Positions 41,818 to 45,616 of a stretch of 64,000 nt of DNA are shown here, one piece after another. Source of the DNA: Nakamurella flava (GTDB lineage Bacteria > Actinomycetota > Actinomycetes > Mycobacteriales > Nakamurellaceae); assembly GCF_005298075.1 (NCBI RefSeq), contig NZ_SZZH01000001.1, forward strand, positions 496,001 through 560,000, written 5' to 3'. Below the pieces are notes generated by a model. That model was not told the origin of the DNA. It searched no databases and saw only the letters and a list, made by a program, of their open reading frames with translations. The translations under genes and the position numbers were made by a program. Position 1 is the stretch's first letter; each line of letters opens with the position of its first letter.

Positions 41818-42690
41818 TCAGCCGCCGATCGGCGTCGGGTTCACCGGGTCCGGCGGGACGGGCACGGAACCGCGGATGCGGTTCTGGGCCTGGCAGTCGC
41901 TGGTGCAGTTGGTGGCTCCGGCGGAGAGTTCGACGGCGTCCTCGCCGAGCACACCGCCCATGCGGCCGCCCGAGGTGACCAGCCAGCGGGTGGCGGTGCC
42001 GTCCTGGTAGGTCTTGGTGGCGACCTGCGGGCTGTCCTTGCCCAGCAGCATCTGGTGATAGCCGGTCGGGCTCTGGGCCGGCGTCACGGCGGAGGTCCCG
42101 TCCCCGAAGTTGATCTTGCCGGTGAACGGGTTGACGAAGTAGAACAGCCCGCTGCCCAGGGTGTGGGTGATCTCGACCGCCGACCCGAACTCGGGCTCCA
42201 TCTGGAAGATGCCACCCTGGGCGCCGTCCTTGGCCTGGATCTTCACCTTGCCGGCCGTGGTCTGGAAGATCAGCACCAGGCTGTCGTCCTCGACCTGCAG
42301 CTCGCGGACCTGCAGGCCGGACCGCTGGGCGGTGGTCAGGGTCGGCACCTTGGACGCGAAGACCACGGTGGGCGCGGTGACCATGCGCTGGGTGTCCGGA
42401 GCGCCGGTCAGCGTGTAGCGGTAGACCCCGAGGGTGGCCGGGTCGACGTCGAAGCCGACGTTGCGGCCGCGCACGGCGATGGTGCCGGTGGGGGTCACGG
42501 ACTTCACCGTGACCGACTGGCCGGCGGCCGGGTTGTAGACGCGGCCGTTGAGGGTGACCGCGAAGTCGCCGCCGGCGGAGGTCTTTCCGGAGGCCTGGGC
42601 CGGGCCCCCGGTGGCCAGGGCCAGCGCGGCGACCGCTCCGACCACCACCAGGGTGCGGGCGGCCCGCAGGGCCGATCGGGTTCGGGACAT
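41818..42690 (-). CDS. Exported beta-rich protein of unknown function
   Basis: 290 aa with a Sec signal peptide: RTRSALRAARTLVVVGAVAALALATGG, cleavage likely after PAQA (near residue 31). The mature part is predicted beta-rich (FAVTLNGRVYNPAAGQSVTV, SLVLIFQTTAGKVKIQA, LFYFVNPFTGKINFGDG). It ends with a Cys pair NCTSDC and a Pro-rich tail PVPPDPVNPTP. Not recognised as any family. ATG 42690 has GAGGAG 6 nt upstream. It lies 126 nt downstream of the two-component regulator on the same strand, with its own GGTACTAGTACC box between them, so it is likely a direct target. Confidence 0.75.
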   Translation of the reverse strand: MSRTRSALRAARTLVVVGAVAALALATGGPAQASGKTSAGGDFAVTLNGRVYNPAAGQSVTVKSVTPTGTIAVRGRNVGFDVDPATLGVYRYTLTGAPDTQRMVTAPTVVFASKVPTLTTAQRSGLQVRELQVEDDSLVLIFQTTAGKVKIQAKDGAQGGIFQMEPEFGSAVEITHTLGSGLFYFVNPFTGKINFGDGTSAVTPAQSPTGYHQMLLGKDSPQVATKTYQDGTATRWLVTSGGRMGGVLGEDAVELSAGATNCTSDCQAQNRIRGSVPVPPDPVNPTPIGG

Positions 42691-42792
42691 CAGGTGCTCC
42701 TCGAGGAGTTCGGCGCGGCCGGGCCGCGATGGACCGCTCATTGCGGTCCGTCCACCGTCGGTCACAGCGGGTCGTGCGCACCATCGGACGGA

Positions 42793-42804
42793 GGTACTAG
42801 TACC
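42793..42804. promoter_or_regulatory. GGTACTAGTACC box 1, candidate response-regulator operator
   Basis: Perfect 12-bp palindrome upstream of the exported protein gene (start 42690). On the minus strand it is followed after three bases by GTCCGATG, exactly as at box 2. It is also flanked by CGGACGG (42785-42791) and CCGTCCG (42808-42814), so it is the loop of a larger dyad just past the regulator stop. Confidence 0.6.
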
Positions 42805-42816
42805 TGCCCGTCCGGT

Positions 42817-43485
42817 TCAGGGCCGCGCCTCCGGCAGGTGGTCGCGGGCCCACATCGCCGCGCTGGTCCGGTCGGCCACGCCCAGCCGCCGAAACAGGCT
42901 GCCGACGTGCACCTTGACGGTTCGCTCGGCGATGCCCAGGTCCCGGCCGATCTGCCGGTTAGACAGGCCACGGGTGAGCCGCAGCAGCACTTCACGTTCC
43001 CGCACGCTGAGCTGGTCGACGAGCGGGACCTCGGTGGTCGGCAGCAGCGCGGTGGCCACCCGTGGGTCGAGCGGTGCGTGCCCCCGGGCCGCCGACCGGA
43101 CCGCTGCGAGCAGGTCGTGCGGCTCGCAGTCCTTGAGGAGGTAGCCGACCGCCCCGGCCCGCAGCGCCTCGGTGACCCGGTCGGTGTCCGAGTACGAGGT
43201 CAGCACCACGACCCGGGTGCCGGGGCAGGCGGCCAGCACCCGGCGAGTGGCCTCGACCCCGTCGACGTCCGGCATCGACAGATCCATCAGGACGACGTCC
43301 GGCTGGTGGGCCCGGGCGACGTCCGCCGCCGAGGCACCGCCGGGGGCCTCGGCGACGACCCGCAGGTCGGTGGTCGCGCCGAGCAGTGCGGCCAACCCGG
43401 TCCGCACCAGCGGGTGGTCGTCGACCAGCAGCACCCGGGTCACCGGGTCCGGGGGCGGAGCGTCCGGGGGTGTCGGGGTGGTCAC
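42817..43485 (-). CDS. NarL/LuxR-type response regulator
   Basis: 222 aa. Receiver domain RVLLVDDHPLVRTGLAALL with acidic pocket DD, phospho-acceptor Asp68 in VVLMDLSMPDVDG, conserved Thr/Ser in VVVLTSYSD and Lys in YLLKDCEP. C-terminal LuxR helix-turn-helix LSVREREVLLRLTRGLSNRQ and AERTVKVHVGSLFRRLGV. GTG 43485 overlaps the kinase stop (GTGA), so the two are cognate. Probable binding sites are the two GGTACTAGTACC boxes flanking the operon. Confidence 0.94.
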   Translation of the reverse strand: MTTPTPPDAPPPDPVTRVLLVDDHPLVRTGLAALLGATTDLRVVAEAPGGASAADVARAHQPDVVLMDLSMPDVDGVEATRRVLAACPGTRVVVLTSYSDTDRVTEALRAGAVGYLLKDCEPHDLLAAVRSAARGHAPLDPRVATALLPTTEVPLVDQLSVREREVLLRLTRGLSNRQIGRDLGIAERTVKVHVGSLFRRLGVADRTSAAMWARDHLPEARP

Positions 43486-44885
43486 GTCGGGAACCGTAGC
43501 TGCCAGCGTGTTCCCGCCCCGGGGGCGGTCCGGACCCGAAGGCTCGCACCGGCTTCCGCGGCGACGTCGGCCAGCACCTGCACGCCGAAATGGCCCGGCG
43601 GTGGGTCGTGGACGACCTGGTCGGCGTCGAAACCCACGCCGTTGTCGACGATCTCGAGGATGGCCTCGCCCGGGGCGTCAGCGGGACGGACGCTGACCAC
43701 TGCGGCGGTGGCGCCGGAGTGGCGGCCCACGTTGCCCAGGCACTCCCGCGCGACCCGGTAGATCAGGCGCTGCCGCTCGGCGTTCAGGTCGGCCGGAGCG
43801 ATCTCGGCACTCACCTGCACTCGGACGTCGATGCCGCGGACCCGCAGTTCCCCGGCCAGGTCCTGCAGGGCGGCGGTCAGGCCGCCGTCGGCCAGCCGGG
43901 GTGGGTAGATGTCCAGTAGCAGGGAGCGCAGGCCGCCGATGCTGGACCGGACGGTCGCCGCGGCCTGCCGCAGCTCGGTCGCCGCCTGGTCACGTCCCTC
44001 GGTGGCGGCCCGTTCGGCCGCGCCCGCCACGGCGAAGGACGTGGCCACCAGGTCCTGCACCACCCCGTCGTGGACGGTCCCGGCGATCCGCCGGCGCTCC
44101 TCGGCCGAGGCGTCGACCGCCCGCTGCAACAGCGATTCCCGTTGGCGCTGGGCGGCGCTGAGCCGGTCCAGCAGGCGCCAGAGCACCGGCAGCAGCAGCA
44201 CGACCAGCAGCAGCAGGCTACTCAGGGTGATCCCGGCGAAGCCGCGGAAGAGCTGGCTGCTGCGGGCGGTCACCTCGTCGTACCGGAAGTAGGCCTCGAA
44301 CAGCAGGGGCGCCCCCGACGGTGTCCACACCGGCCGGTAGGTCTCGAGCAGCTGGTCGTTGCCCCGTTCGTAGACGTTCTCCGGCGCGGCCAGATCGGAG
44401 ACCTCGGCCCTGGTCGCCGGGACCGCGAAGACCTCCCGTTCGTCCTGGCCCAGCGGGAAGGTCTGCCCGATCAGTCGGGGTTCGTCGGAGTACAGCACTC
44501 GACCGGTCGGGTCCCACACCTTCAGGCGGACCACCGGTGGGCCGGCGAGCACGTGTTCGCGGACCACGCCGTCGATCGCGGCGACCGACCCGGGATCGCC
44601 GTCCAGCAGACCGTCCTGCAGGGCCGGCTGGAGCAGCAGTTCGGCCAGCAGGTCGGCGGTCTTGGCCGCGTCGGCGACCGCCTCGGCCTCGGCCAGCCGC
44701 CGGGCGGCGACCACCCCGGCGACGGCGACGGCGGCGACGACCACCAGGGCCAGCAGCACCACCTGGAGCAGGACGCGCCGACGCCGGAGCGCAGGAGCGG
44801 TCTGCTCCTGCGCTCCGACCGTCAGGTCGACCCACCCGGGGGGCGGGGGTGGTGGGTCGACCGGCTCCTCGGTGGGATGGCTCAT
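43482..44885 (-). CDS. Membrane sensor histidine kinase (HisKA_3)
   Basis: 467 aa. A Pro-rich cytosolic N-terminus is followed by TM1 (VLLQVVLLALVVVAAVAVAG), a ~155-residue extracytoplasmic sensor region (CHASE/dCache-like spacing; PVVRLKVWDPTGRVLYSDE), TM2 (ITLSSLLLLVVLLLPVLW), dimerisation helix with phospho-His272 in IAGTVHDGVVQDL, and a HATPase with GNVGRHSG, DNGVGFD and GHFGVQVL. ATG 44885 overlaps the stop of the acidic exported protein. The signal is unknown; coupling to an exported acidic protein suggests an envelope or metal cue. Confidence 0.93.
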   Translation of the reverse strand: MSHPTEEPVDPPPPPPGWVDLTVGAQEQTAPALRRRRVLLQVVLLALVVVAAVAVAGVVAARRLAEAEAVADAAKTADLLAELLLQPALQDGLLDGDPGSVAAIDGVVREHVLAGPPVVRLKVWDPTGRVLYSDEPRLIGQTFPLGQDEREVFAVPATRAEVSDLAAPENVYERGNDQLLETYRPVWTPSGAPLLFEAYFRYDEVTARSSQLFRGFAGITLSSLLLLVVLLLPVLWRLLDRLSAAQRQRESLLQRAVDASAEERRRIAGTVHDGVVQDLVATSFAVAGAAERAATEGRDQAATELRQAAATVRSSIGGLRSLLLDIYPPRLADGGLTAALQDLAGELRVRGIDVRVQVSAEIAPADLNAERQRLIYRVARECLGNVGRHSGATAAVVSVRPADAPGEAILEIVDNGVGFDADQVVHDPPPGHFGVQVLADVAAEAGASLRVRTAPGAGTRWQLRFPT

Positions 44886-45541
44886 CGGTGTCCGGCGCCG
44901 TCGTCCCCGCCGCTGGAATCCGAGCCGGAACCCGAGCCCGATCCGTGACCGGAGCCGGACACGCCGCCGGAGTGCGCACCGTCCTCGCCGCGGTCACGGT
45001 CGCGGCCCCGATCGTCGGGCTCCTCGCCCGAACGCGCCCGGGCCGGGTCGTCGCTGGTCGGGGCCACGGTGGCGGTGGTGCGGTCGTCTTCGGCCGGGTC
45101 GTCCGCGCCACCACGCTCGTCCCCGCCCGGGGCGGATCCGCCACGATCGTCCGCGGAATCGTCGCCGGTGCGTCCGCCGTGCCGGTCGACCGTCTCGCCG
45201 GTCGGATCGTCATCGGTGGCGTCCGCCCGGCCGCCGTGGTCGTCGGGTGCGGTGCTCACCGTGCTCGGCGACGTGGTGGTCGGCGACGTGGTGGTCGGCG
45301 ATGCGCTGGTGGACGACTCGGTCGACGGTGTGGTGCTGGCCGCGTTCGGCGACGAGGAGCCGGCCGGGTCGTGGTCGGTCGTCCGGCCGCCGTGGTCGTC
45401 CGCGGCCACGACGGTGAGGGTGGCCGACTGCGGGACCCGGACGGGGATGCTGTCGCCGAACGAGGCGTTCCCGACCAGTCCGAGCACGGCGGGCACACAG
45501 GCCGCGACCACCAGGCCGCTGAGGATGGCGATGCGCTTCAT
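44882..45541 (-). CDS. Exported acidic low-complexity protein coupled to a sensor kinase
   Basis: 219 aa. N-terminal signal or anchor (KRIAILSGLVVAACVPAVLG) and a short ordered part (SIPVRVPQSATLTVVAADD), then a disordered Asp/Gly/Ser/Thr-rich region. It contains repeated DDHGGR, DRHGGR and DDRGGS units, a PTTTSPTTTSP run and a GSGHGSGSGSGSDSSGG tail. No known family. His within acidic repeats could bind metal ions, which is speculation. ATG 45541 has GGGAG upstream; the stop overlaps the kinase start by 4 nt, making it the first gene of a three-gene operon under box 2. Confidence 0.75.
   Translation of the reverse strand: MKRIAILSGLVVAACVPAVLGLVGNASFGDSIPVRVPQSATLTVVAADDHGGRTTDHDPAGSSSPNAASTTPSTESSTSASPTTTSPTTTSPSTVSTAPDDHGGRADATDDDPTGETVDRHGGRTGDDSADDRGGSAPGGDERGGADDPAEDDRTTATVAPTSDDPARARSGEEPDDRGRDRDRGEDGAHSGGVSGSGHGSGSGSGSDSSGGDDGAGHR
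45266..45300. repeat. 15-bp tandem repeat in the acidic exported-protein gene
   Basis: Unit CGGCGACGTGGTGGT at 45266-45280 and 45281-45295, with a partial third copy. It encodes the PTTTS run on the minus strand; unit changes remain in frame. Confidence 0.6.
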
Positions 45542-45604
45542 GGTGCGCTCCCTTCTGCCGACTCAGTTCTCTCCCATCCGTCGTCGGCGGCGACATCGGA
45601 CCTT

Positions 45605-45616
45605 GGTACTAGTACC
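45605..45616. promoter_or_regulatory. GGTACTAGTACC box 2, candidate response-regulator operator
   Basis: Identical 12-bp palindrome to box 1, in the 80-bp gap between the APC permease stop and the acidic exported protein (start 45541). On the minus strand AAG and then GTCCGATG follow, sharing the 8-mer with box 1. This would make the operon self-regulated. Confidence 0.6.

Follow-up and report, generated by a model that had tools for sequence, protein, structure and literature searches.

The window analysed here is a 64,000-nucleotide stretch of the Nakamurella flava genome (contig NZ_SZZH01000001.1, positions 496,001 to 560,000). On its minus strand it carries a compact signalling locus with the gene order acidic exported protein, HisKA_3 kinase, NarL-type regulator and, beyond a palindromic box (box 1), exported beta-rich protein. 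As the initial annotation had described, a second box (box 2) precedes the operon of the first three genes and box 1 precedes the beta-rich gene. Domain scores (Response_reg 99 bits, GerE 67, HisKA_3 40, HATPase_c 31; each above its cut-off) identify a NarL/FixJ-type response regulator with a HisKA_3 kinase. In the structure model of the kinase (mean predicted local distance difference test score, pLDDT, 86) we read a membrane helix at about residues 35-58, a mixed alpha/beta outer domain resembling PAS/Cache at about 60-205, and a second membrane helix. The 50 matches shown by a fold search were kinases, aligned mostly over catalytic regions, and were therefore uninformative on the sensor domain. 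The acidic and beta-rich proteins of the window match no Pfam or NCBIfam family above cut-off. The structure of the beta-rich protein gave a middling match to a mutarotase-like sandwich, and likewise to YidC periplasmic and beta-galactosidase domains; since these matches are middling and spread over several domains, we assign it no function.

Features of the locus in the window (positions are those of the window)
Feature	Positions	Strand	Remarks
Box 2, palindrome GGTACTAGTACC	45605..45616	-	upstream of the acidic protein-kinase-regulator operon
Composite element 2 (palindrome + AAG + GTCCGATG)	45594..45616	-	conserved in relatives
-10-like hexamer position of box 2 (GAGAAC)	45566..45571	-	weak, T one base late; inferred from fixed spacing (85 sites)
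Acidic exported protein, 219 amino acids	44882..45541	-	first gene of the operon; conserved N-terminus GNASFGDSIPVRVPQSA, D/G/S/H-rich tail
Sensor histidine kinase, 467 amino acids	43482..44885	-	HisKA_3 + HATPase_c
NarL-type response regulator, 222 amino acids	42817..43485	-	recognition helix ERTVKVHVG
Box 1, palindrome GGTACTAGTACC	42793..42804	-	upstream of the beta-rich exported gene
Composite element 1 (palindrome + TCC + GTCCGATG)	42782..42804	-	conserved in relatives
-10-like hexamer of box 1 (GACGGT)	42754..42759	-	inferred from fixed spacing (85 sites)
Beta-rich exported protein, 290 amino acids	41818..42690	-	C-terminal CxxxC and PPDP..PIG

The initial annotation had reported two identical 12-mers, each followed on the minus strand by three variable bases and a shared tail, and had judged such a 20-base match very unlikely to arise by chance. 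All of this held when it was counted. Both boxes read GGTACTAGTACC, and the pattern GGTACTAGTACC-NNN-GTCCGATG is exact at both minus-strand sites, with a mean of 0.00 occurrences in 100 shuffles. Across the genome of N. flava (4.84 Mb, 13 contigs) the 12-mer is found at up to one mismatch only at boxes 1 and 2, while a reversed control pattern occurs 28 times. The conserved tail is one base longer than GTCCGATG and reads GTCCGATGG, with G at position 24 in 89 of 94 sites compared (defined below) and T at that position in box 2 of the window. Hereafter the composite element is GGTACTAGTACC-N3-GTCCGATGG, and the 24-mer GGTACTAGTACCAAGGTCCGATGG served as probe.

A kinase profile search returned 393 loci, of which the best 80 come from Cellulomonas, Nocardioides, Marmoricola, Frigoribacterium, Microbacterium, Knoellia and others. 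The 24-mer was present at 20/24 or better in 44 of these 80 loci (perfect in 11), a level that none of 60 shuffled probes reached in any locus. Lowering the threshold to 17/24 gave 65 loci, compared with 4.6 on average and 27 at most for the shuffled probes. Within the genus, for which 17 genomes were compared, the box occurs in precisely those six that encode a close kinase (E-value at most 1e-80, a threshold chosen after viewing the list), and each of its nine sites adjoins that kinase. By arithmetic the probability of so perfect a division is 1 in 12,376, a figure uncorrected for kinship and tied to a post hoc threshold. Two further genomes (G003 and G011) have no box, and their kinase matches are only weaker ones, at about 1e-45 and 32% identity, comparable to a paralog in the N. 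flava genome.

Scanning 24 whole genomes (about 100 Mb) for the composite element at up to two mismatches gave 26 matches in 22 genomes. Of these, 25 are at the kinase-regulator locus and the other falls within a coding region; the reversed control matched once. Because 20 of these genomes had been reached through kinase loci, the telling part of the scan is the absence of matches elsewhere. The tails in the two genomes with no match (G012 and G006) diverge more. Scans made without a kinase query covered 396 genomes of the phylum and 394 of the class, in overlapping sets, and a palindrome scan covered 298 genomes of the order. Besides N. flava itself, the phylum and class scans matched three genomes. 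In G373 the site precedes a member of a third exported family described below, with a regulator 49.5% identical, and in G1019 it lies with an acidic protein, a kinase and a beta-rich protein; in G747 (L196, 1501-1659) a 22/24 composite has only 135 bases of contig beyond it, so that its target is undecidable. The order scan found a 22/24 composite preceding the third family in G170, with a 48% identical kinase on another contig, along with five other palindromes, not considered further, in which the second element is lacking (17/24 or less). In G053 the kinase operon and the beta-rich gene are on separate contigs, and the box before the acidic-family gene that precedes the kinase has the same unusual form, GTACTAGTGC, as the box before the beta-rich gene, which would fit control in trans. 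A scatter of the box over many unrelated sites, which the initial annotation had named as evidence against its own reading, was looked for in these genome scans and not observed. On the shuffles, the genome-wide rarity, the shuffled probes and the kinase-independent scans we rejected a chance origin of the shared boxes.

A beta-rich protein paired with a two-component system is found as far away as Deinococcus gobiensis, where the kinase-regulator pair is divergent and the box is absent. On plasmid P1 (L197, 1618-4717) a 46% identical beta-rich protein is encoded divergently to a kinase (27%) and a regulator (41%), and a CCGACC-TT-GGTCGG inverted repeat lies between the divergent genes instead.

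To describe what follows the element we oriented 94 sites in the window and in 91 loci, chosen for their similarity to the 24-mer, and defined as strong the 85 sites, from 67 loci, with at least six of nine bases of GTCCGATGG. One of three exported families begins at most 750 bases downstream of 80 of the 85 strong sites: the acidic family at 50, the beta-rich family at 24 and the third family at 6, where one gene of G012 is counted twice, being preceded by two sites. Five strong sites have no such gene, one of them being an opposite-strand echo. Members of the acidic family keep an N-terminal segment of the type GNxSFxxSVPVRVP and end in D/G/S/H-rich repeats. The third family (about 130 amino acids, for example L079 4796-5191 and L112 4996-5391) follows roughly the pattern GxCSxxxTWKLKAKxDDGRIEVEFEVDSNRxGQ. 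It is present in 17 of 92 loci searched, two locus pairs being the same records, and a search of the N. flava genome, made with no positive control, gave no match. When one acidic, one beta-rich and four third-family proteins were scanned singly, Pfam gave nothing above cut-off, one third-family member being weakly immunoglobulin-like (Big_7, below cut-off); with 14 beta-rich members the best Pfam match reached only E 0.016. At about position 2412 of L093 a weaker composite (18/24) precedes a 703-residue exported protein that is not among the usual targets.

Downstream of the composite, at positions that played no part in the selection, A at position 47 and T at position 51 stand out. The motif ANNNT starts at position 47 in 42 of the strong sites and at 46 in 18 (60 of 85 in union), and other adjacent offset pairs tested gave at most 7 of 85. 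At this fixed spacing ANNNT looks like a -10 element, which would put the palindrome centre near -51 and GTCCGATGG near -38. The hexamer of box 1 in the window matches exactly, and transcription from box 1 would be expected to start near 42747. Because a GTG at 42765 lies upstream of this predicted start, the beta-rich gene most likely begins at the ATG at 42690 rather than at the longer GTG frame. The composite is directional, with the GTCCGATGG half on one side of the palindrome; in Microbacterium a single palindrome between divergent genes has a directional half on either side, facing each promoter. The GTCCGAT part of the tail was considered as the -10 element itself and dropped, given ANNNT at fixed spacing and no conserved -35 before the palindrome. 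A second full dimer site in GTCCGATGG was likewise discarded, the sequence being at most a possible half-site whose position 15 is not conserved.

Since the palindrome reads GGTCGTACGACC or GGTACTACGACC in Microbacterium and others, the half-site is GGTNST, and GTAC-N2-GTAC, which the initial annotation had named as the MacR core, is not the conserved core in these relatives. The recognition helix of the regulator is nearly invariant across loci. Among the 66 loci with data for both, G at half-site position 5 occurs in 0 of 33 with Val192 and in 21 of 33 with Ala192 (Fisher 8e-9, uncorrected for kinship), and position 192 presumably corresponds to a base-contacting residue of NarL. On the kinase tree Val and Ala switch five times, and well-supported branches require three of these changes; in no case does the half-site move in the opposite direction.

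Several known systems resemble the locus in part. HbpS-SenS-SenR of Streptomyces, which joins a kinase, a response regulator and a secreted partner in one pathway, is alike in outline as a three-component pathway with an exported partner, but the deduced SenR consensus, an imperfect CGGGCCGCGTCCCG, is unlike the window box (PMC4991794). HbpS is an octamer (PMC3754957), whereas the acidic protein of the window has a low-complexity D/G/S/H-rich tail, and the Pfam and NCBIfam searches showed no HbpS-like domain in the exported partner. The kinase core is like those of DesK/VraS-type kinases in sequence and fold, and differs from them by its operon and by a large predicted extracellular sensor domain. 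In DevRS/DosR of mycobacteria a NarL-type dimer binds ahead of the target promoters, on a palindrome whose half-site is of the GG.ACT type; the arrangement is similar, while half-site, sensor domain and targets appear to differ. The equivalog cut-offs of other kinases were far from reached (MctS 118 of 700 bits, LiaS 71 of 450, MadS 49 of 500). Literature searches with GTACTAGTAC and actinobacteria found nothing, those with GGTACTAGTACC returned only work unrelated by title, and topic searches gave no paper on this system among the matches listed.

Taken with its neighbours, the locus very probably encodes a small dedicated module whose NarL-type regulator, bound to the palindrome, switches on the operon that encodes it as well as the exported proteins. 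The initial annotation had proposed that the regulator binds the box, autoregulates and drives the exported protein, and the comparison of genomes favours this, in that the box tracks the kinase-regulator pair and occurs almost solely at its locus. The membrane kinase would sense an extracellular signal through its PAS/Cache-like domain and phosphorylate the regulator, a transfer established for this class of kinase and NarL-type regulator. To judge from the spacing, a dimer of the regulator would then bind GGTACTAGTACC, some 51 bases ahead of the transcription start, and activate transcription; GTCCGATGG, which extends into the -35 region, would serve as a second contact or a weak half-site. 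In N. flava the predicted targets are its own operon and the neighbouring exported beta-rich protein, to which relatives would add the third exported family; since the regulator would activate its own operon, the circuit would form a self-amplifying loop. The acidic protein, we weakly infer, probably remains tethered through its N-terminus and either modulates the kinase or buffers surface cations. More tentative, and in our view slightly on the doubtful side, is the wider idea of an undescribed, phylum-wide three-component surface signalling system, in which a tethered acidic D/H-rich protein and the kinase would form the sensor and exported beta-rich proteins the output, the system being defined by a single ultra-conserved composite promoter made up of the palindrome, GTCCGATGG and a -10 at fixed spacing.

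The polarity of the switch cannot be read from sequence, and a protein bound at the GTCCGATGG half, which extends over the -35 region, could also block polymerase; the regulator might thus be a repressor or a dual switch on the box. We consider this unlikely, because the element does not overlap the predicted -10 or start, and because a palindrome centred near -51 with a poor -35 at fixed spacing is typical of activated promoters. It is more improbable still that the element is recognised by something else, for instance a dedicated sigma factor or a global regulator, of which the two-component pair would be just one target among others. The GTCCGATGG half is indeed directional like a promoter element, but a -10-like sequence sits further downstream of the element, whose presence follows the kinase-regulator pair, and the only off-locus match among the 26 in 24 genomes lies inside a coding region.

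The initial annotation had suggested that the system is a variant of the MacR type, and MacRS of Streptomyces coelicolor (SCO2120/2121) does combine a kinase with a NarL regulator and membrane or exported targets, MacR controlling membrane proteins and lipoproteins (PMC9739842). The protein classes are thus the same, and N. flava has the GTAC-N2-GTAC core, which is not kept in relatives. Against the MacS model the kinase scores 54.4 and 55.5 bits where the cut-off is 300, and four other N. flava kinases score higher, none passing. The MacR box, which we take to be TGAGTAC-N2-GTACTCA, has no match in the N. flava genome at up to two mismatches; the half-site here differs, and the regulon is narrow and local. 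No MacR model was named among the best 25 of 122 NCBIfam rows, and literature searches for the MacR motif gave only unrelated matches among those listed. For the kinase and for this box we rejected the MacR variant, and a MacR-type operator with a divergent MacRS pair has hardly any probability left.

Some observations weigh against the dedicated module. Because the sites were picked by similarity, conservation at positions 1-24 is partly circular, whereas neither the spacing nor the genes further downstream are. In the window, box 2 agrees with the -10 position only approximately, and the link between Val/Ala and half-site rests, on the tree, on few independent changes and is not significant. 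Fifteen of the 80 loci fall below 17/24: four of them (L080, L092, L120 and L137) end just upstream of the kinase, and the remainder have weak versions of the element or none. One genome of the comparison (G001) has the beta-rich protein with neither close kinase nor box. Ten beta-rich loci of a family labelled f16, at a guess Geodermatophilaceae, also have no box (best 13/24 nearby), in genomes lacking a close kinase (no kinase at E-value at most 1e-30 in eight of ten, weaker ones only in two, best 4e-54). At eight of these ten loci (L048, L050-L058) a different palindrome, approximately CATGAACGTTCATG, precedes the beta-rich gene, which suggests a different regulator there.

By our expectation, operator specificity such that a 24-base pattern alone locates the system in whole-genome scans is unusual for a NarL-type regulator. 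Distantly related actinobacteria appear to have in common a DNA switch preserved nearly letter for letter, which would control its own genes and a few secreted proteins. Three exported families with no known function are thereby tied together and given a candidate regulator and a testable operator, for which Cellulomonas, Microbacterium, Frigoribacterium and Nakamurella are suitable genera, and a recognition-helix position that covaries with the half-site offers a direct handle on protein-DNA specificity.

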